From positions 7,298,501-7,362,500 of the forward strand of contig NZ_CP100604.1 in the NCBI RefSeq assembly GCF_031202265.1: 64,000 bases of DNA, read 5' to 3'. Position 1 is the stretch's first letter. The number at the start of each line of letters is the position of its first letter. Under the pieces are notes generated by a model. It worked only from the letters and a program-made list of their open reading frames with translations, made no database searches and had not been told where the DNA came from. Positions 2,763 to 54,482 of the stretch are shown here, piece by piece. The DNA comes from Bradyrhizobium sp. Ash2021. Lineage in GTDB: Bacteria; Pseudomonadota; Alphaproteobacteria; Rhizobiales; Xanthobacteraceae. The translations under genes were made by a program, and so were the position numbers.

Positions 2763-3746
2763 ATGTCTTCTCCGGTCATGTCCTCCACGGTGTCGCGCGA
2801 ACGTCTTGGTCTGTTGCTCGGCTTTATCGGCGTGGCGATTTTCGGCGGCACGCTGCCGGCGACGCGCATCGCGGTATCTGAAATTGATCCGATTGCGCTG
2901 ACATCGTTGCGCACCGCGATCGCCGGACTGTGTTCGCTGGCGCTGTTGCTGGTACTGCGCCGGCCGCTGCCGCCGCGCGCGCTGTGGCTTCAGCTCGTGA
3001 TCACGATGCTGTGCGTCAGCATCCTGTTTCCACTGCTGATGTCGCTCGGGATGCAGCGCGTCGACGCCTCGCATGGCGGCGTGGTGCTCGGCATTCTCCC
3101 CATTGCCACCGCGCTGGTTGCCGTCGCCATCACTCACGAACGGCCGCGCCCCCTGTTCTGGATCACATCCGTCGGCGGCGCGGCATTGGTGGTCGCGTTT
3201 GCGCTGCGGCAAGGCGGCGGCACGCTATCCGCCGGCGATTTGCTTTTGTTCGCCGCCGTCGCGGTCGCCGCGATCGGCTACGCGTTCTCGGGACGGCTCA
3301 CTTCGCAGATGCCCGGCTGGGAAGTCATCAGCTGGGTGCTGGTGATCGCGCTGCCGGTCTCGATCCCCGCCGCCACGCTCACCATGCCGGCCGACATCAG
3401 CCACATCGCCTTGAAGCCCTGGCTCGGCCTGCTCTACGTCGCGATCTTTTCCCAATGGGTCGGGTTCTTCGCCTGGAACGCCGGCATGGCGATGGGCGGC
3501 ATCGCGCGGGTCTCGCAGATCCAATTGTTGCAGCCCTTCATCACCTTCGTGCTCGCGGCCTGCTTCAACGGCGAGACCATCACGCCGCAGATCGTGCTGT
3601 TCGCCTCCGCCGTGGTGGCGACGGTGGCGATCTCGACGCGCACGCGCGGACGGGCGGCGCCGACCGACACCGTCATTCCGGGTTCGGCTCGGAGCCTGTC
3701 ATCGGGCCGCGCTCTGCGCGGACCCGTTGGCGCCGCCCCCGAATGA
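2763..3746 (+). CDS. EamA/DMT family transporter with a repeat-encoded C-terminus
   Basis: A 327-residue protein with ten hydrophobic segments and the two EamA halves. The first starts LGLLLGFIGVAIFGGTLPATR and the second follows about residue 160. DMT carriers export metabolites or drugs; no substrate can be assigned. Translation starts at ATG 2763; an in-frame ATG six codons later is an alternative. The transmembrane part ends near VVATVAISTRTRGRA. The last roughly 27 residues (TDTVIPGSARSLSSGRALRG onward) are encoded by an R1 repeat carrying the nested hairpin module. The natural tail was probably shorter. The gene converges on the ABC transporter at 3757. Confidence 0.9.
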   Translation: MSSPVMSSTVSRERLGLLLGFIGVAIFGGTLPATRIAVSEIDPIALTSLRTAIAGLCSLALLLVLRRPLPPRALWLQLVITMLCVSILFPLLMSLGMQRVDASHGGVVLGILPIATALVAVAITHERPRPLFWITSVGGAALVVAFALRQGGGTLSAGDLLLFAAVAVAAIGYAFSGRLTSQMPGWEVISWVLVIALPVSIPAATLTMPADISHIALKPWLGLLYVAIFSQWVGFFAWNAGMAMGGIARVSQIQLLQPFITFVLAACFNGETITPQIVLFASAVVATVAISTRTRGRAAPTDTVIPGSARSLSSGRALRGPVGAAPE

Positions 3747-3747
3747 C
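3672..3747. repeat. dispersed repeat R1, copy c, with nested hairpin module (copy M1)
   Basis: The R1 arms CGTCATTCCGGG and CCCCGAATGACC enclose module M1 (3690-3731), which begins GGAGCCTGTCATCGGGCC and ends GGACCCGTTGGC. The module core folds as GGG-CCGCGC/GCGCGG-A-CCC with a bulged A. This copy provides the last codons of the DMT gene. Confidence 0.85.
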
Positions 3748-46004: not shown

Positions 46005-46011
46005 AGCCCCG

Positions 46012-46122
46012 TTCCGAGGGGAGCTCCGATGAGGAGCTGAGATACCGCAAGCTTTGGGCCGGTTTGGCCTTGAGACCGCGGTGACCCTTTGAACCTGATC
46101 CGGGTCATGCCGGCGAAGGGAC
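46012..46122 (+). promoter_or_regulatory. TPP riboswitch (THI element)
   Basis: The conserved core CTGAGATACCGC and the thi-box segment GACCCTTTGAACCTGATCCG with GGGTCATGCCGGCGAAGGGA are both present, in the family's order. The aptamer starts next to the predicted transcription start and ends about five bases before the ATG of thiO. No terminator is visible between, so it most likely hides the ribosome binding site (AGGGACAGGG region) when thiamine pyrophosphate binds. Confidence 0.96.
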
Positions 46123-46126
46123 AGGG

Positions 46127-47140
46127 ATGTACCAGAGTTCGAAGCCGGGGGGGGATTCCCCCGTATCCATCATCGGCGCAGGCATTGCCGGCGCATGGCA
46201 AGCCCTGCTGTTCGCGCAGGCCAGCCATGCCGTGACCTTGCACGAGCGCAGTGACGCCGGAATGACGGAATCCACCAGCCACTGGGCCGGCGGCATGCTG
46301 GCGCCCTGGTGCGAGGCCGAAACCTCGGAACCCCTGATCACGCGGCTCGGCGTCCGCTCGCTCACCCTCTGGCGCGAGCAGTTTCCCCAGACCCCCTTCA
46401 ACGGCTCGCTGGTGGTGGCGCATGCGCGCGACCGCGCCGATTTCGAGCGCTTTGCAAAGCTCACCACCGGTCACAAGCGGCTCGACGCGCGCGGTTTGAG
46501 CGAACTCGAACCGTCGCTGGAAGGCCGCTTTCGCGACGGGCTGTTTTATGCCGGTGAAGGCCATGTCGAGCCGCGGCTTGTGTTGCCGGAATTGCACGCG
46601 CGCATCGCGGCCGCCGGCGGCCGGATCGAATTCAACAGCGATGCGGATGCCAAGGACCTCGACGGCATCGTGATCGATTGCCGCGGGCTCGCGGCGCGCG
46701 ACACCCAGCCCGAATTGCGCGGCGTCAAGGGCGAGATGATCATCGTCGAGACGTCAGAGGTCGAACTGTCGCGTCCGGTGCGGCTGATCCATCCGCGCTG
46801 GCCGCTCTATGTAATCCCGCGCGGCGACGGCCGCTTCATGCTGGGCGCGACCTCGATCGAGGCCGAGGATTCCGGCGTCAGCGTGCGCTCGGCGCTGGAG
46901 CTGCTGGGCGCGGCCTATGCGGTGCATCCGGCGTTTGCCGAGGCGCGGATCGTCGAATTCGGCTCCGGCTTGCGGCCGGCGTTTCCCGACCATCTGCCGC
47001 GGATTGCGATCGACAATGACAGGATCGCGGTGAACGGCCTCTATCGCCACGGGTTTTTGCTGGCGCCGGCGCTGGCGGAGCTGACGCTGGGTTATGTCGC
47101 GCGCGGCGTGATCGACAATGAGGTGATGCAATGCGCGTGA
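46127..47140 (+). CDS. thiO: glycine oxidase-like FAD enzyme of thiamine synthesis
   Basis: A 337-residue FAD protein. The Rossmann motif VSIIGAGIAGAWQALL starts at residue 13, and DAO-family features follow: HWAGGMLAPWCE, MLGATSIEAEDSG and the C-terminal GLYRHGFLLAPALAELTLGY. ThiO oxidises glycine to iminoglycine, which ThiG uses to build the thiazole ring. It is first in the operon and directly controlled by the TPP riboswitch. Its stop overlaps the thiS start by ten bases. Confidence 0.93.
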   Translation: MYQSSKPGGDSPVSIIGAGIAGAWQALLFAQASHAVTLHERSDAGMTESTSHWAGGMLAPWCEAETSEPLITRLGVRSLTLWREQFPQTPFNGSLVVAHARDRADFERFAKLTTGHKRLDARGLSELEPSLEGRFRDGLFYAGEGHVEPRLVLPELHARIAAAGGRIEFNSDADAKDLDGIVIDCRGLAARDTQPELRGVKGEMIIVETSEVELSRPVRLIHPRWPLYVIPRGDGRFMLGATSIEAEDSGVSVRSALELLGAAYAVHPAFAEARIVEFGSGLRPAFPDHLPRIAIDNDRIAVNGLYRHGFLLAPALAELTLGYVARGVIDNEVMQCA

Positions 47141-53227: not shown

Positions 53228-53269
53228 AGTTGAGTGCGGGCGAGAAAAATGGTGAGTTTCGCTGAGTTT

Positions 53270-53322
53270 ATCATCGGGCGCGCATTCGCGCGACCCGTTG
53301 GCTCTACCCACCCTACGAATCC
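53270..53322. repeat. hairpin module copy M2 with the end of an R7 repeat
   Basis: ATCATCGGGCGCGCATTCGC then GCGACCCGTTGGCT is the right part of the module; CTACCCACCCTACGAA that follows is the right arm of family R7 (compare 53752-53766). The left arm is missing, so this is a truncated copy. Confidence 0.75.
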
Positions 53323-53557: not shown

Positions 53558-53642
53558 CGCGAACCTCATGCCGTTAGTCTGCCTCATGCCATCCTATTCA
53601 GGATCGCGCGATGCGCAATCGGTTCGAGCAAGCCCGAGTCAG

Positions 53643-53766
53643 TAGGGTGGGCAAAGGCGCGCTTGCGCCGTGCCCACCATGTTTTCCTCCGCTTGCAATG
53701 GTGGGCACGCGGAGCCTGTCATCGGGCGCGCATTCGCGCGACCCGTTGGCTTTTCCCACCCTACGA
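53643..53766. repeat. dispersed repeat, family R7, with nested hairpin module (copy M3)
   Basis: GTAGGGTGGGCAAAGGCGCG opens and TTTCCCACCCTACGAA closes, with GTGCCCACCATG/CAATGGTGGGCAC inside. Module M3 (53709-53751, GGAGCCTGTCATCGGGCGCG onward) sits between the inner arm and the closing arm. Confidence 0.85.
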
Positions 53767-53804
53767 AGCTGCTTCGCTTCACGCGCAAGGAAAAAATGGA
53801 GCTG

Positions 53805-54308
53805 TGGCTGCGACAAATCAACACGACGGGCAAATCACCCAAAACCTGTCTAGCCCTTCCGCAAAAAATATTTCGCTTTCGCCGTCGGGCAAATCAGTGG
53901 TTTGACTCCGCGCGTCTCATCCGAATGAGGGGCGGGTCGCGATCGTCACGAACGTTGCGGTGAGATGCGGTGGACGCGAAGGCCACGACTGACGAGCGTG
54001 GCCGATGCGGACGGCGAAGTCGTGTGGTCCTGGCGCCCCGATGCTGGCGTCAAGTTCTTGGGAAGCGAGATTCTCAGGGATGACGGTGGCAAACAAGCCG
54101 GTCACCGGGGAGAGCGCGAAGTAAGCCGTAAAACCATTGCGCGGGGAAGGCCGGAGTGTTTCCGCTGAACCTGTATGCTCGTGTGCGTTTTCTTTTGTGC
54201 ATGTTGCACACGAGACCGCGGGTGCAGCGCGCACCCGGTCTTCCCTGCGCCCTCTGCGCTTTACGAGGGTGGAACGTGACGCAAAGCTCGGGCGGATCGC
54301 GCCGCGAG
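53805..54308. repeat. composite repeat R4, copy B
   Basis: Same blocks as copy A (9881-10243) in reverse orientation. 53810-53905 holds CGGGCAAATCA motifs and AAATATTT; 54111-54308 holds AAGCCGTAAAACCATTGCGC, CACACGAGACCGCGGGTGCA and CCTGCGCCCTCTG. The intervening 200 bases (from about 53960) have no match in copy A but look like sequence I recall next to this repeat in other Bradyrhizobium genomes. ORFs here are not called as genes. Confidence 0.78.
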
Positions 54309-54362
54309 AAGGCGGGCGCGTATCCTCATCGCTGTTTGACACGTGAATCGGTAGTCTCACCC

Positions 54363-54482
54363 CGTCATTGCGAGGAGCGACAGCGACGAAGCAATCCATC
54401 TATCCCCACGTTGAGGCATGGATTGCTTCGCGGAGCCTGTCATCGGGCGCGCGTTCGCGCGACCCGGTGGCTCGCAATGACG
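54363..54482. repeat. dispersed repeat, family R2, copy c, with nested hairpin module (copy M4)
   Basis: Left arm CGTCATTGCGAGGAGCGACA then GAAGCAATCCAT; right side ATGGATTGCTTCG, then module M4 (54430-54472), then CTCGCAATGACGC. In copy a the same junction is only ATTGCTTCG-CTGCG-CTCGCAATGAC, so the module replaces or splits five bases. Confidence 0.9.

Follow-up and report, generated by a model that had tools for sequence, protein, structure and literature searches.

The 64,000-nt stretch of the Bradyrhizobium sp. Ash2021 genome analyzed here (the window) carries three palindromic repeats, R1, R7 and R2, that share one small internal hairpin, and this raises the question of what this hairpin is and how it came to lie inside repeats that are otherwise unrelated. 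An initial sequence-only reading had located it close to the right arm of each repeat and had proposed that it is mobile or targeted, that it prefers palindromes and that it is kept for its structure. We report here that, in Bradyrhizobium and its relatives, this small DNA hairpin exactly occupies the tip loop of short palindromic repeats that belong to several unrelated families.

A 38-39 nt hairpin forms the tip of REPs in the window and genome-wide

The shared hairpin, hereafter the module, is 38-39 nt long and has the form GGAGCCTGTCATCGGG-stem-A-CCCG(T/G)TG. Exact matches to GGAGCCTGTCATCGGG start at 3691, 53711 and 54432 of the window, and eight matches were found when up to three mismatches were allowed, while shuffled windows gave a mean of 0.99 and reached eight in none of 100 shuffles. 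The module does lie inside R1, R7 and R2, and its exact limits could be set for each (Table 1). It is inside its host rather than simply close to a right arm, since it forms the apex of one REP hairpin. In R1 this REP stands by itself; in R7 and R2 it is the right-hand member of a head-to-head pair. What had been taken for a partial copy at 53270-53302 is indeed the module, but a full-length variant of it, in a GTAG-type REP with its right arm at 53301-53316 and a degenerate left arm. The R2 pair stands at the right end of a segment (53824-54482) that is part of a high-copy interspersed repeat, to which the related genome B. erythrophlei GAS478 has about 30 matches longer than 300 bp (74-86% identity) besides the ortholog. 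The window also holds an RNase P RNA (463-888) and a TPP riboswitch (46007-46139).

Table 1. REPs and modules in the window
Feature	Position	Strand	Details
R1, CGTC-ATTCCGGG REP (Br-REP2 type) with the module as tip	3670..3747	+	arms CCGTCATTCCGGGTTCGGCTC / GCGCCGCCCCCGAATGAC
Module in R1, apex stem CCGCGC/GCGCGG, 39 nt	3691..3729	+	exact match; DNA fold of whole REP
Module variant with GAGTTTA 5' end, in GTAG-type REP	53263..53300	+	also at the orthologous GAS478 site
R7 left member, empty GTAG-GGTGGGC REP	53642..53678	+	one base differs in GAS478
R7 right-hand GTAG-GGTGGGC REP with module	53700..53764	+	GTAG tag read on the minus strand
Module in R7, stem CGCGC/GCGCG, 38 nt	53711..53748	+	GAS478 loop here is TTTC
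R2 left member, empty long-type CGTC-ATTGCGA REP	54363..54398	+	loop and spacer differ in GAS478
R2 right-hand short-type CGTC-ATTGCGA REP with module	54420..54482	+	sequence and GAS478 comparison
Module in R2, stem CGCGC/GCGCG, 38 nt	54432..54469	+	GAS478 loop here is TTC

The whole Ash2021 genome (9.70 Mb, two contigs) gave 174 matches to GAGCCTGTCATCGGGC with up to two mismatches, against 7 for a reversed-pattern control, and 140 exact-core copies (pattern TCATCGGGC-N8-16-GACCCGKTGGC), against none for the control. A slightly shorter pattern found 144 copies in GAS478. From fetched stretches of the Ash2021 genome we obtained 113 left-anchored matches, 106 of which were parsed as modules with a pattern that fixes part of the right half; the seven others include three damaged modules (L010, L036, L058). 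An earlier filter had removed 12 of 114 raw matches, four of them true copies (L003, L008, L037, L063).

The module carries no GTAG motif at its own foot, where most copies read GGAGCCTGTCAT or GGAGTTTATCAT, and it shows neither the target-site duplication nor the terminal inverted repeats of a MITE or insertion sequence. Compared with GAS478, the loop is replaced without duplication at R7, R2, L035, L043b, L051 and L075.

The module replaces the loop of hosts of at least eight arm types

The sequence-only reading was right that the hosts are unrelated, but their arm types number at least eight rather than three. Arm patterns, followed by reassignment of two copies by eye (L071 to ATTGCGA and L083 to ATCGYCC), placed 101 of the 106 parsed Ash2021 modules in eight arm types: 86 in CGTC-ATTGCGA and 15 in seven others, which are GTAG-GGTGGGC (4), CGTC-ATTCCGGG (3), CGTC-ATCGYCC (3), GTAG-GGCGGATT (2), and CGTC-ATGCCC, CGTC-GTCCCGGG and a CTCATCCTGAGG repeat (1 each). 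The five remaining copies, which fell outside the arm patterns and were read by eye, occupy interrupted or odd repeats: two ATTGCGA hosts with an interrupted left arm (L021, L068), a AAATTCAAG/CTTGAATTT palindrome (L078), an imperfect palindrome (L004) and the GTAG-type repeat around the copy at 53263. The module is therefore found mostly within palindromic repeats, as had been supposed. These hosts have the features of REPs, namely a CGTC or GTAG tag, palindromic arms, a high copy number and an arrangement in head-to-head pairs, with no clear tag at the CTCATCCTGAGG host (L007) and at the L078 and L004 palindromes.

The replacement follows a regular rule, in which a host ..GC/3-4 nt/GC.. becomes ..GC/GGAGCC..CCCGKTG/GC.. 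(slashes mark the junctions), so that the module takes the tip of the REP and leaves the closing GC and GC in place. The junction GC/GG..TG/GC was seen in at least 90 of 103 Ash2021 copies, in 37 of 41 GAS478 copies and in 100 of 142 copies from other species. A generic score of flank complementarity gave no nesting signal among the 106 modules (four above the random 99% level), because the arms of the dominant host are short and bulged.

That host, the ATTGCGA repeat, has 362 short-apex matches in the Ash2021 genome, and 121 further matches have 35-64 nt between the same anchors; among the 100 of these 121 that were listed and read by eye, 95 hold the module, two another cassette, and three are composite or spurious. 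Anchoring on the host arms only gave 79 filled and 103 empty Ash2021 copies, numbers that do not represent a frequency because the regions were picked for modules. Even so anchored, the filled copies have an exact TCATCGGG in 76/79 cases and ACCCG in 75/79 (26/30 and 30/30 in GAS478). The empty copies fit GC/3-4 nt/GC in 98 of 103 cases with 13 different loops (TTC 50, TGC 16, TATC 8, TAC 6), and this variation marks the apex as a hotspot of change.

Orientation, self-nesting and a second cassette

All 109 filled ATTGCGA hosts (79 in Ash2021, 30 in GAS478) hold the module in a single orientation; a reversed module would have been counted as "other", and the sole "other" is a different cassette. 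By eye, the remaining host types show the same orientation relative to the tag, where a tag exists. A crude regular expression placed the tag 3' of the module in 98/103 Ash2021, 39/41 GAS478 and 107/142 other copies (with tags on both sides in 20, 7 and 27), only 5' of it in 1, 1 and 9, and on neither side in 4, 1 and 26. When the 11 cases with a 5' tag only were read by eye, seven were artefacts of the expression, two lie in tagless hosts (L255, L271), one is ambiguous (L226) and one is a nested copy (L259). The constant orientation may reflect the polarity of the loop, TTC being this way round.

In the nested copy L259, the apex of a CGGCGC-type module is occupied by one of the CGCGC type, the whole lying in an ATTGCGA repeat. 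At L078, the module's 3' half together with the host arm recurs, inverted, on the other side of the module as a perfect 26-nt copy, which fits template switching, as such a switch could make a repeat of this kind.

A second hairpin cassette (..CGCTCGTTGAGCTACGGCGGACAAG..) gave 11 pattern matches. By eye, it occupies the tips of ATTGCGA (L039, L041, L327), CCCGG-type (L058), ATTCCGGG (L242) and GGCGGATT (L021) repeats, and it also lies in the arms of ATTGCGA repeats (L021, L068, L070, L083, L344). Its positions in the Ash2021 genome include C1:3060616 and C1:3174816.

The tip is polymorphic at orthologous sites of two close relatives

GAS478 was found via a scan of genome contigs; in the stretches that were mapped, its identity to the Ash2021 genome is mostly 93-97%. 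Its ortholog of the window region 52.7-55.1 kb is colinear (89% identity counting gaps). At R7, GAS478 matches the arms, the spacer and the left partner, with a single-base difference in each repeat of the pair, and has its short loop where the module would be. At R2 the arms agree, while the spacer and the loop of the left partner differ. The R1 ortholog has a TGC loop, with two bases beside the tip also changed.

Mapping 23 of 107 Ash2021 copies and 22 of 40 GAS478 copies yielded 33 sites, two pairings (L049 to L320 and L052 to L295) being left out as paralogous. The module is present in both genomes at 15 of the 33 sites, 13 are polymorphic, in both directions, and at five the REP is replaced or missing. 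Ash2021 is filled at eight of the polymorphic sites (R1, R7, R2, L033, L035, L043b, L051, L075) and GAS478 at five (L285, L294, L296, L299, L300, the last with both members of the pair filled). For all the Ash2021-filled sites save L033, GAS478 has a bare loop of 3-4 nt at the same point. The direction of change cannot be fixed site by site: each polymorphic site may reflect a gain or a loss. At two sites filled in both genomes, L034/L310 and L334/L288, the tips are of different types in flanks that are 92-98% identical. The proposal of a hairpin targeted to palindromes is thus borne out in a more specific form, its targets being their loops, where it is present in one close relative and absent from the other at orthologous sites.

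One may ask whether the module has any mobility of its own, or is just one loop allele carried along when whole REP pairs undergo ordinary ectopic gene conversion, are inverted or are replaced. The second possibility draws on the fact that 86 of 106 copies sit in one abundant host, on the link between host and stem type described below, and on the seven polymorphic sites of 13 at which, read side by side, more than the tip differs. At six of these the pair changed together with the tip: the spacer at R2 and L051, the length type of the partner at L285 and of the REP itself at L033, the spacer and both members at L300, and the pair at L294, whose spacer is inverted relative to its Ash2021 counterpart L336, so that the whole pair seems flipped. 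The seventh, L299, has small spacer changes. REP pairs of another family occupy the same intergenic spot in the second genome at L029, L080, L281 and L303; with L291, where the REP is missing, these make up the five sites with a replaced or missing REP. However, the difference is essentially restricted to the tip, by eye, at the six other polymorphic sites (R7, L035, L043b, L075, R1 and L296, the last with one arm base also changed), and at R7, L035, L043b and L075 the arms and 60 nt leftward agree within one base while the tip differs. Moreover, the module is common to at least eight arm types and also lies inside another module. We therefore regard the replacement of whole pairs as an unlikely explanation for the module as such. 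Since the same spots so often lack the hairpin in the related strain, the repeats look like mosaics with swappable tips.

Beyond GAS478, a search of 195 genomes of the genus found the R1 locus in 30; the module was in none of the 13 relatives' gaps that were read, most of which have no REP. Only three (L123, L127, L128) have a clear CGTC-like repeat at this site, which makes this comparison weak.

A conserved bulge and a covarying stem

The sequence-only reading had noticed that all copies keep the same bulged A while the stem bases vary as pairs, and both observations hold on a larger scale. The bulge is an A in 104 of the 106 parsed Ash2021 modules (G in two), and in all the fully parsed host-anchored copies (72 of 79 in Ash2021 and 26 of 30 in GAS478 could be so parsed). 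The module has the irregular hairpin with a conserved bulge that is typical of RAYT REPs.

Covariation was assessed on 142 copies from other species, a few of them probably chance matches, and excludes the CGGG/A/CCCG frame and mostly the first apex pair, which the search patterns fix. Among the 68 copies with a 15-nt apex, the stems were CCGCGC/GCGCGG (28), CGGCGC/GCGCCG (20), CCGGCC/GGCCGG (9), CTCGCC/GGCGAG (4) and rarer ones, and pairs 2-5 were Watson-Crick in 98.5% of cases, against 64.4% (maximum 74.3%) when the 3' halves were shuffled among sequences. The 26 distinct stems of this class gave 96.2% against 59.4% (maximum 73.1%), and the 47 copies with a 14-nt apex 98.9% against 92.1% (maximum 95.7%), while pairing was not above that of shuffles for apices of 13 nt (12 copies) and 18 nt (9 copies). 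In the Ash2021 genome the stem type is linked to the host: of the six copies assigned to ATTCCGGG or GGCGGATT hosts, five have CCGCGC, and the sixth (L071) has an ATTGCGA host by eye, against 0 of 86 in ATTGCGA hosts (Fisher p = 1.2e-7).

The module on its own is predicted to fold as DNA into a hairpin with the bulged A (z -2.72). With the module in place, whole REPs gave z -3.29 (R1), -1.39 (R7) and -0.94 (R2), the predicted fold of R2 not pairing the host arms as drawn, and the R7 REP as it stands in GAS478, with no module, gives a good fold on its own (z -4.50).

Structure kept across species with such strong covariation could point to a functional RNA or DNA hairpin (a binding site, mRNA stabilizer or terminator) that was recruited to REP tips and is kept by selection, and REPs do lie within some Bradyrhizobium 3'-UTR transcripts, according to the part of that report considered here (PMC5082802). 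Against this, the presence of the module differs between two strains as close as Ash2021 and GAS478, the whole R7 and R2 REPs fold unremarkably, and Rfam 15 at its gathering threshold has no match to the module in the window, where it detects only the RNase P RNA and the TPP riboswitch. Hairpin-templated correction can also yield covariation. We thus hold a selected function of this kind to be very improbable. The module may be kept for its structure, as had been proposed: that the bulged A is retained speaks for recognition of some kind, short of proof, but the paired changes can also come from hairpin-templated correction. Recognition of the folded module by some protein or copying step is suggested by its conserved bulge together with its asymmetric inner loop.

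The module is largely confined to one family and is abundant in a genome with no Y1 match

In a sample of the family with 198 genomes from 47 genera, the exact core was found in 94 genomes and 30 genera. In a sample of the order, 17 of 397 genomes had it; 19 of the 397 belong to the same family as Ash2021, and the 378 others gave two single matches, which are probably due to chance because their apices do not form a stem. The matches listed in a scan of named genomes come mostly from Bradyrhizobium, and also from Rhodopseudomonas, Afipia, Tardiphaga, Rhodoplanes, Pseudorhodoplanes and MAGs named at higher ranks only; three of the matches, 28 nt long and from distant taxa (L164, L166, L194), are likely to be chance ones.

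The sequence-only reading had envisaged a linked transposase of the TnpA-REP type. A profile search for Y1_Tnp (PF01797), positive on its E. coli control, gave no match in the Ash2021 genome and 23 in GAS478, although the two genomes hold similar numbers of modules, so that this expectation found no support. A local RAYT is thus unnecessary for holding many copies, though one may be needed for making new ones; an enzyme may have been lost since, or be of a type not covered by the profile. Across the family sample, PF01797 matches occur in 46 of 198 genomes (37 over the cut-off), and the module is present in 33 of these 46 against 61 of the 152 others, a hand tally uncorrected for kinship, genome size and assembly quality. 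On contig C4 of GAS478 (G385), profile positions 2-80 are covered by eight near-identical Y1 transposase matches, for which the end of the profile matches separately at a distance of 0.1-2.8 kb, which looks like an interruption.

These data bear on the idea that a dedicated single-strand DNA enzyme, of the HUH/Y1 type or other, acts in trans and puts the module into loops. The conserved bulged base resembles the irregular hairpins recognized by TnpA-REP and IS200/IS605 enzymes, and the E. coli TnpA-REP enzyme needs the palindrome bulge and recognizes its substrate in a strand-specific manner, as described in the part of PMC8266576 considered here. The single orientation in all 109 filled ATTGCGA hosts, the clean tip-only differences at several sites, the Y1 matches of GAS478 and the greater frequency of the module in Y1-positive genomes all agree with a loop-targeted mobile hairpin. 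Yet the genome with 140 copies has no Y1_Tnp match and is the filled one at eight mapped sites that are empty in GAS478 (the direction of these changes not being fixed), a second, unrelated cassette occupies the same tips, no gene travels with the module, and the association with Y1 enzymes is the uncorrected one given above. We consider enzymatic insertion doubtful on balance. Its boldest form should be put just as tentatively: a minimal mobile hairpin, confined to the loops of other hairpins, that would recognize folded single-stranded DNA, replace GC-closed loops in one orientation, be able to nest in itself and be moved in trans by an enzyme.

Discussion

With moderate confidence, we propose that REP hairpins have exchangeable tips, of which the module is one, and that it spreads, probably by break or template-switch repair at loops, mostly within and rarely between repeat families. 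Judging from the end products described above, REP arms would extrude as hairpins on single-stranded DNA, such as the lagging strand; the loop would then be opened, or the nascent strand would quit its template at the loop, and repair would copy the tip of another REP. The donor would mostly belong to the same REP family, whose arms supply homology, and rarely to an unrelated family with only GC..GC and the loop in common, and it is by such rare copying that the module may have crossed families. As DNA, d(GCGAAGC) folds into a mini-hairpin of very high stability, and SbcCD cleaves hairpins close to the loop, so that the GC-GAA-GC apex would be a natural break point.

Copying at loops does not account for everything. 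Pure template switching offers no reason why the bulged A and TCATCGGG..CCCG should be constant, and a bulge would tend to be lost under hairpin-templated correction. Nor is the constant orientation readily explained, unless it is set by the polarity of the loop (TTC versus GAA). At seven of the 13 polymorphic sites the difference extends beyond the tip. What the template-switch view chiefly leaves over is the retention of the bulge and the inner loop.

These observations bear on the origin and spread of REPs that have no RAYT, the CGTC class in particular. Where one relative has a tip and the other only a bare loop, a strain-level event can be counted; such events make REP hairpins mosaics whose tips can change apart from their arms, and point to the hairpin loop as the place where DNA breaks and rejoins. 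They also carry a warning that covariation in bacterial palindromes need not imply an RNA function.

REPs are the preferred landing sites of the insertion sequence IS621. The same is described, in the portions of the reports considered here, for IS1397 (PMC1525189) and ISPpu9 (PMC8450116). Such REP-targeting insertion sequences carry transposase genes, whereas the module is a 38-39 nt non-coding element that replaces loops. RAYT/TnpA-REP systems with their BIMEs likewise comprise palindromes and REP pairs with different loops, in the text excerpts considered (PMC8266576, PMC2817692); there, REPs are whole units with a GTAG tag, while here the tip alone is exchanged and no Y1 gene was found in the Ash2021 genome. 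The consensus of Br-REP2, as far as given in the parts of PMC5082802 considered, looks like an empty form of R1 with similar arms, but no nested module is described there for Br-REP1 or Br-REP2, unlike R1. The texts on REP loops and nested REPs that we searched, figures and supplements aside, contained no description of the module, and the core sequence led to just two papers, whose titles point to other subjects. Closest to the main hosts are the CGTC and GTAG REPs of Di Nocera et al. 2013 (PMC3733652), which are likewise tagged, arranged in head-to-head pairs and variable in their loops, and whose CGTC class is said in the text considered to "apparently lack a dedicated transposase". That text mentions no 38-39 nt structured tip common to the CGTC and GTAG families, although its figures may show the module as a loop, nor any tip polymorphism at orthologous sites or module within a module, both of which we found here.
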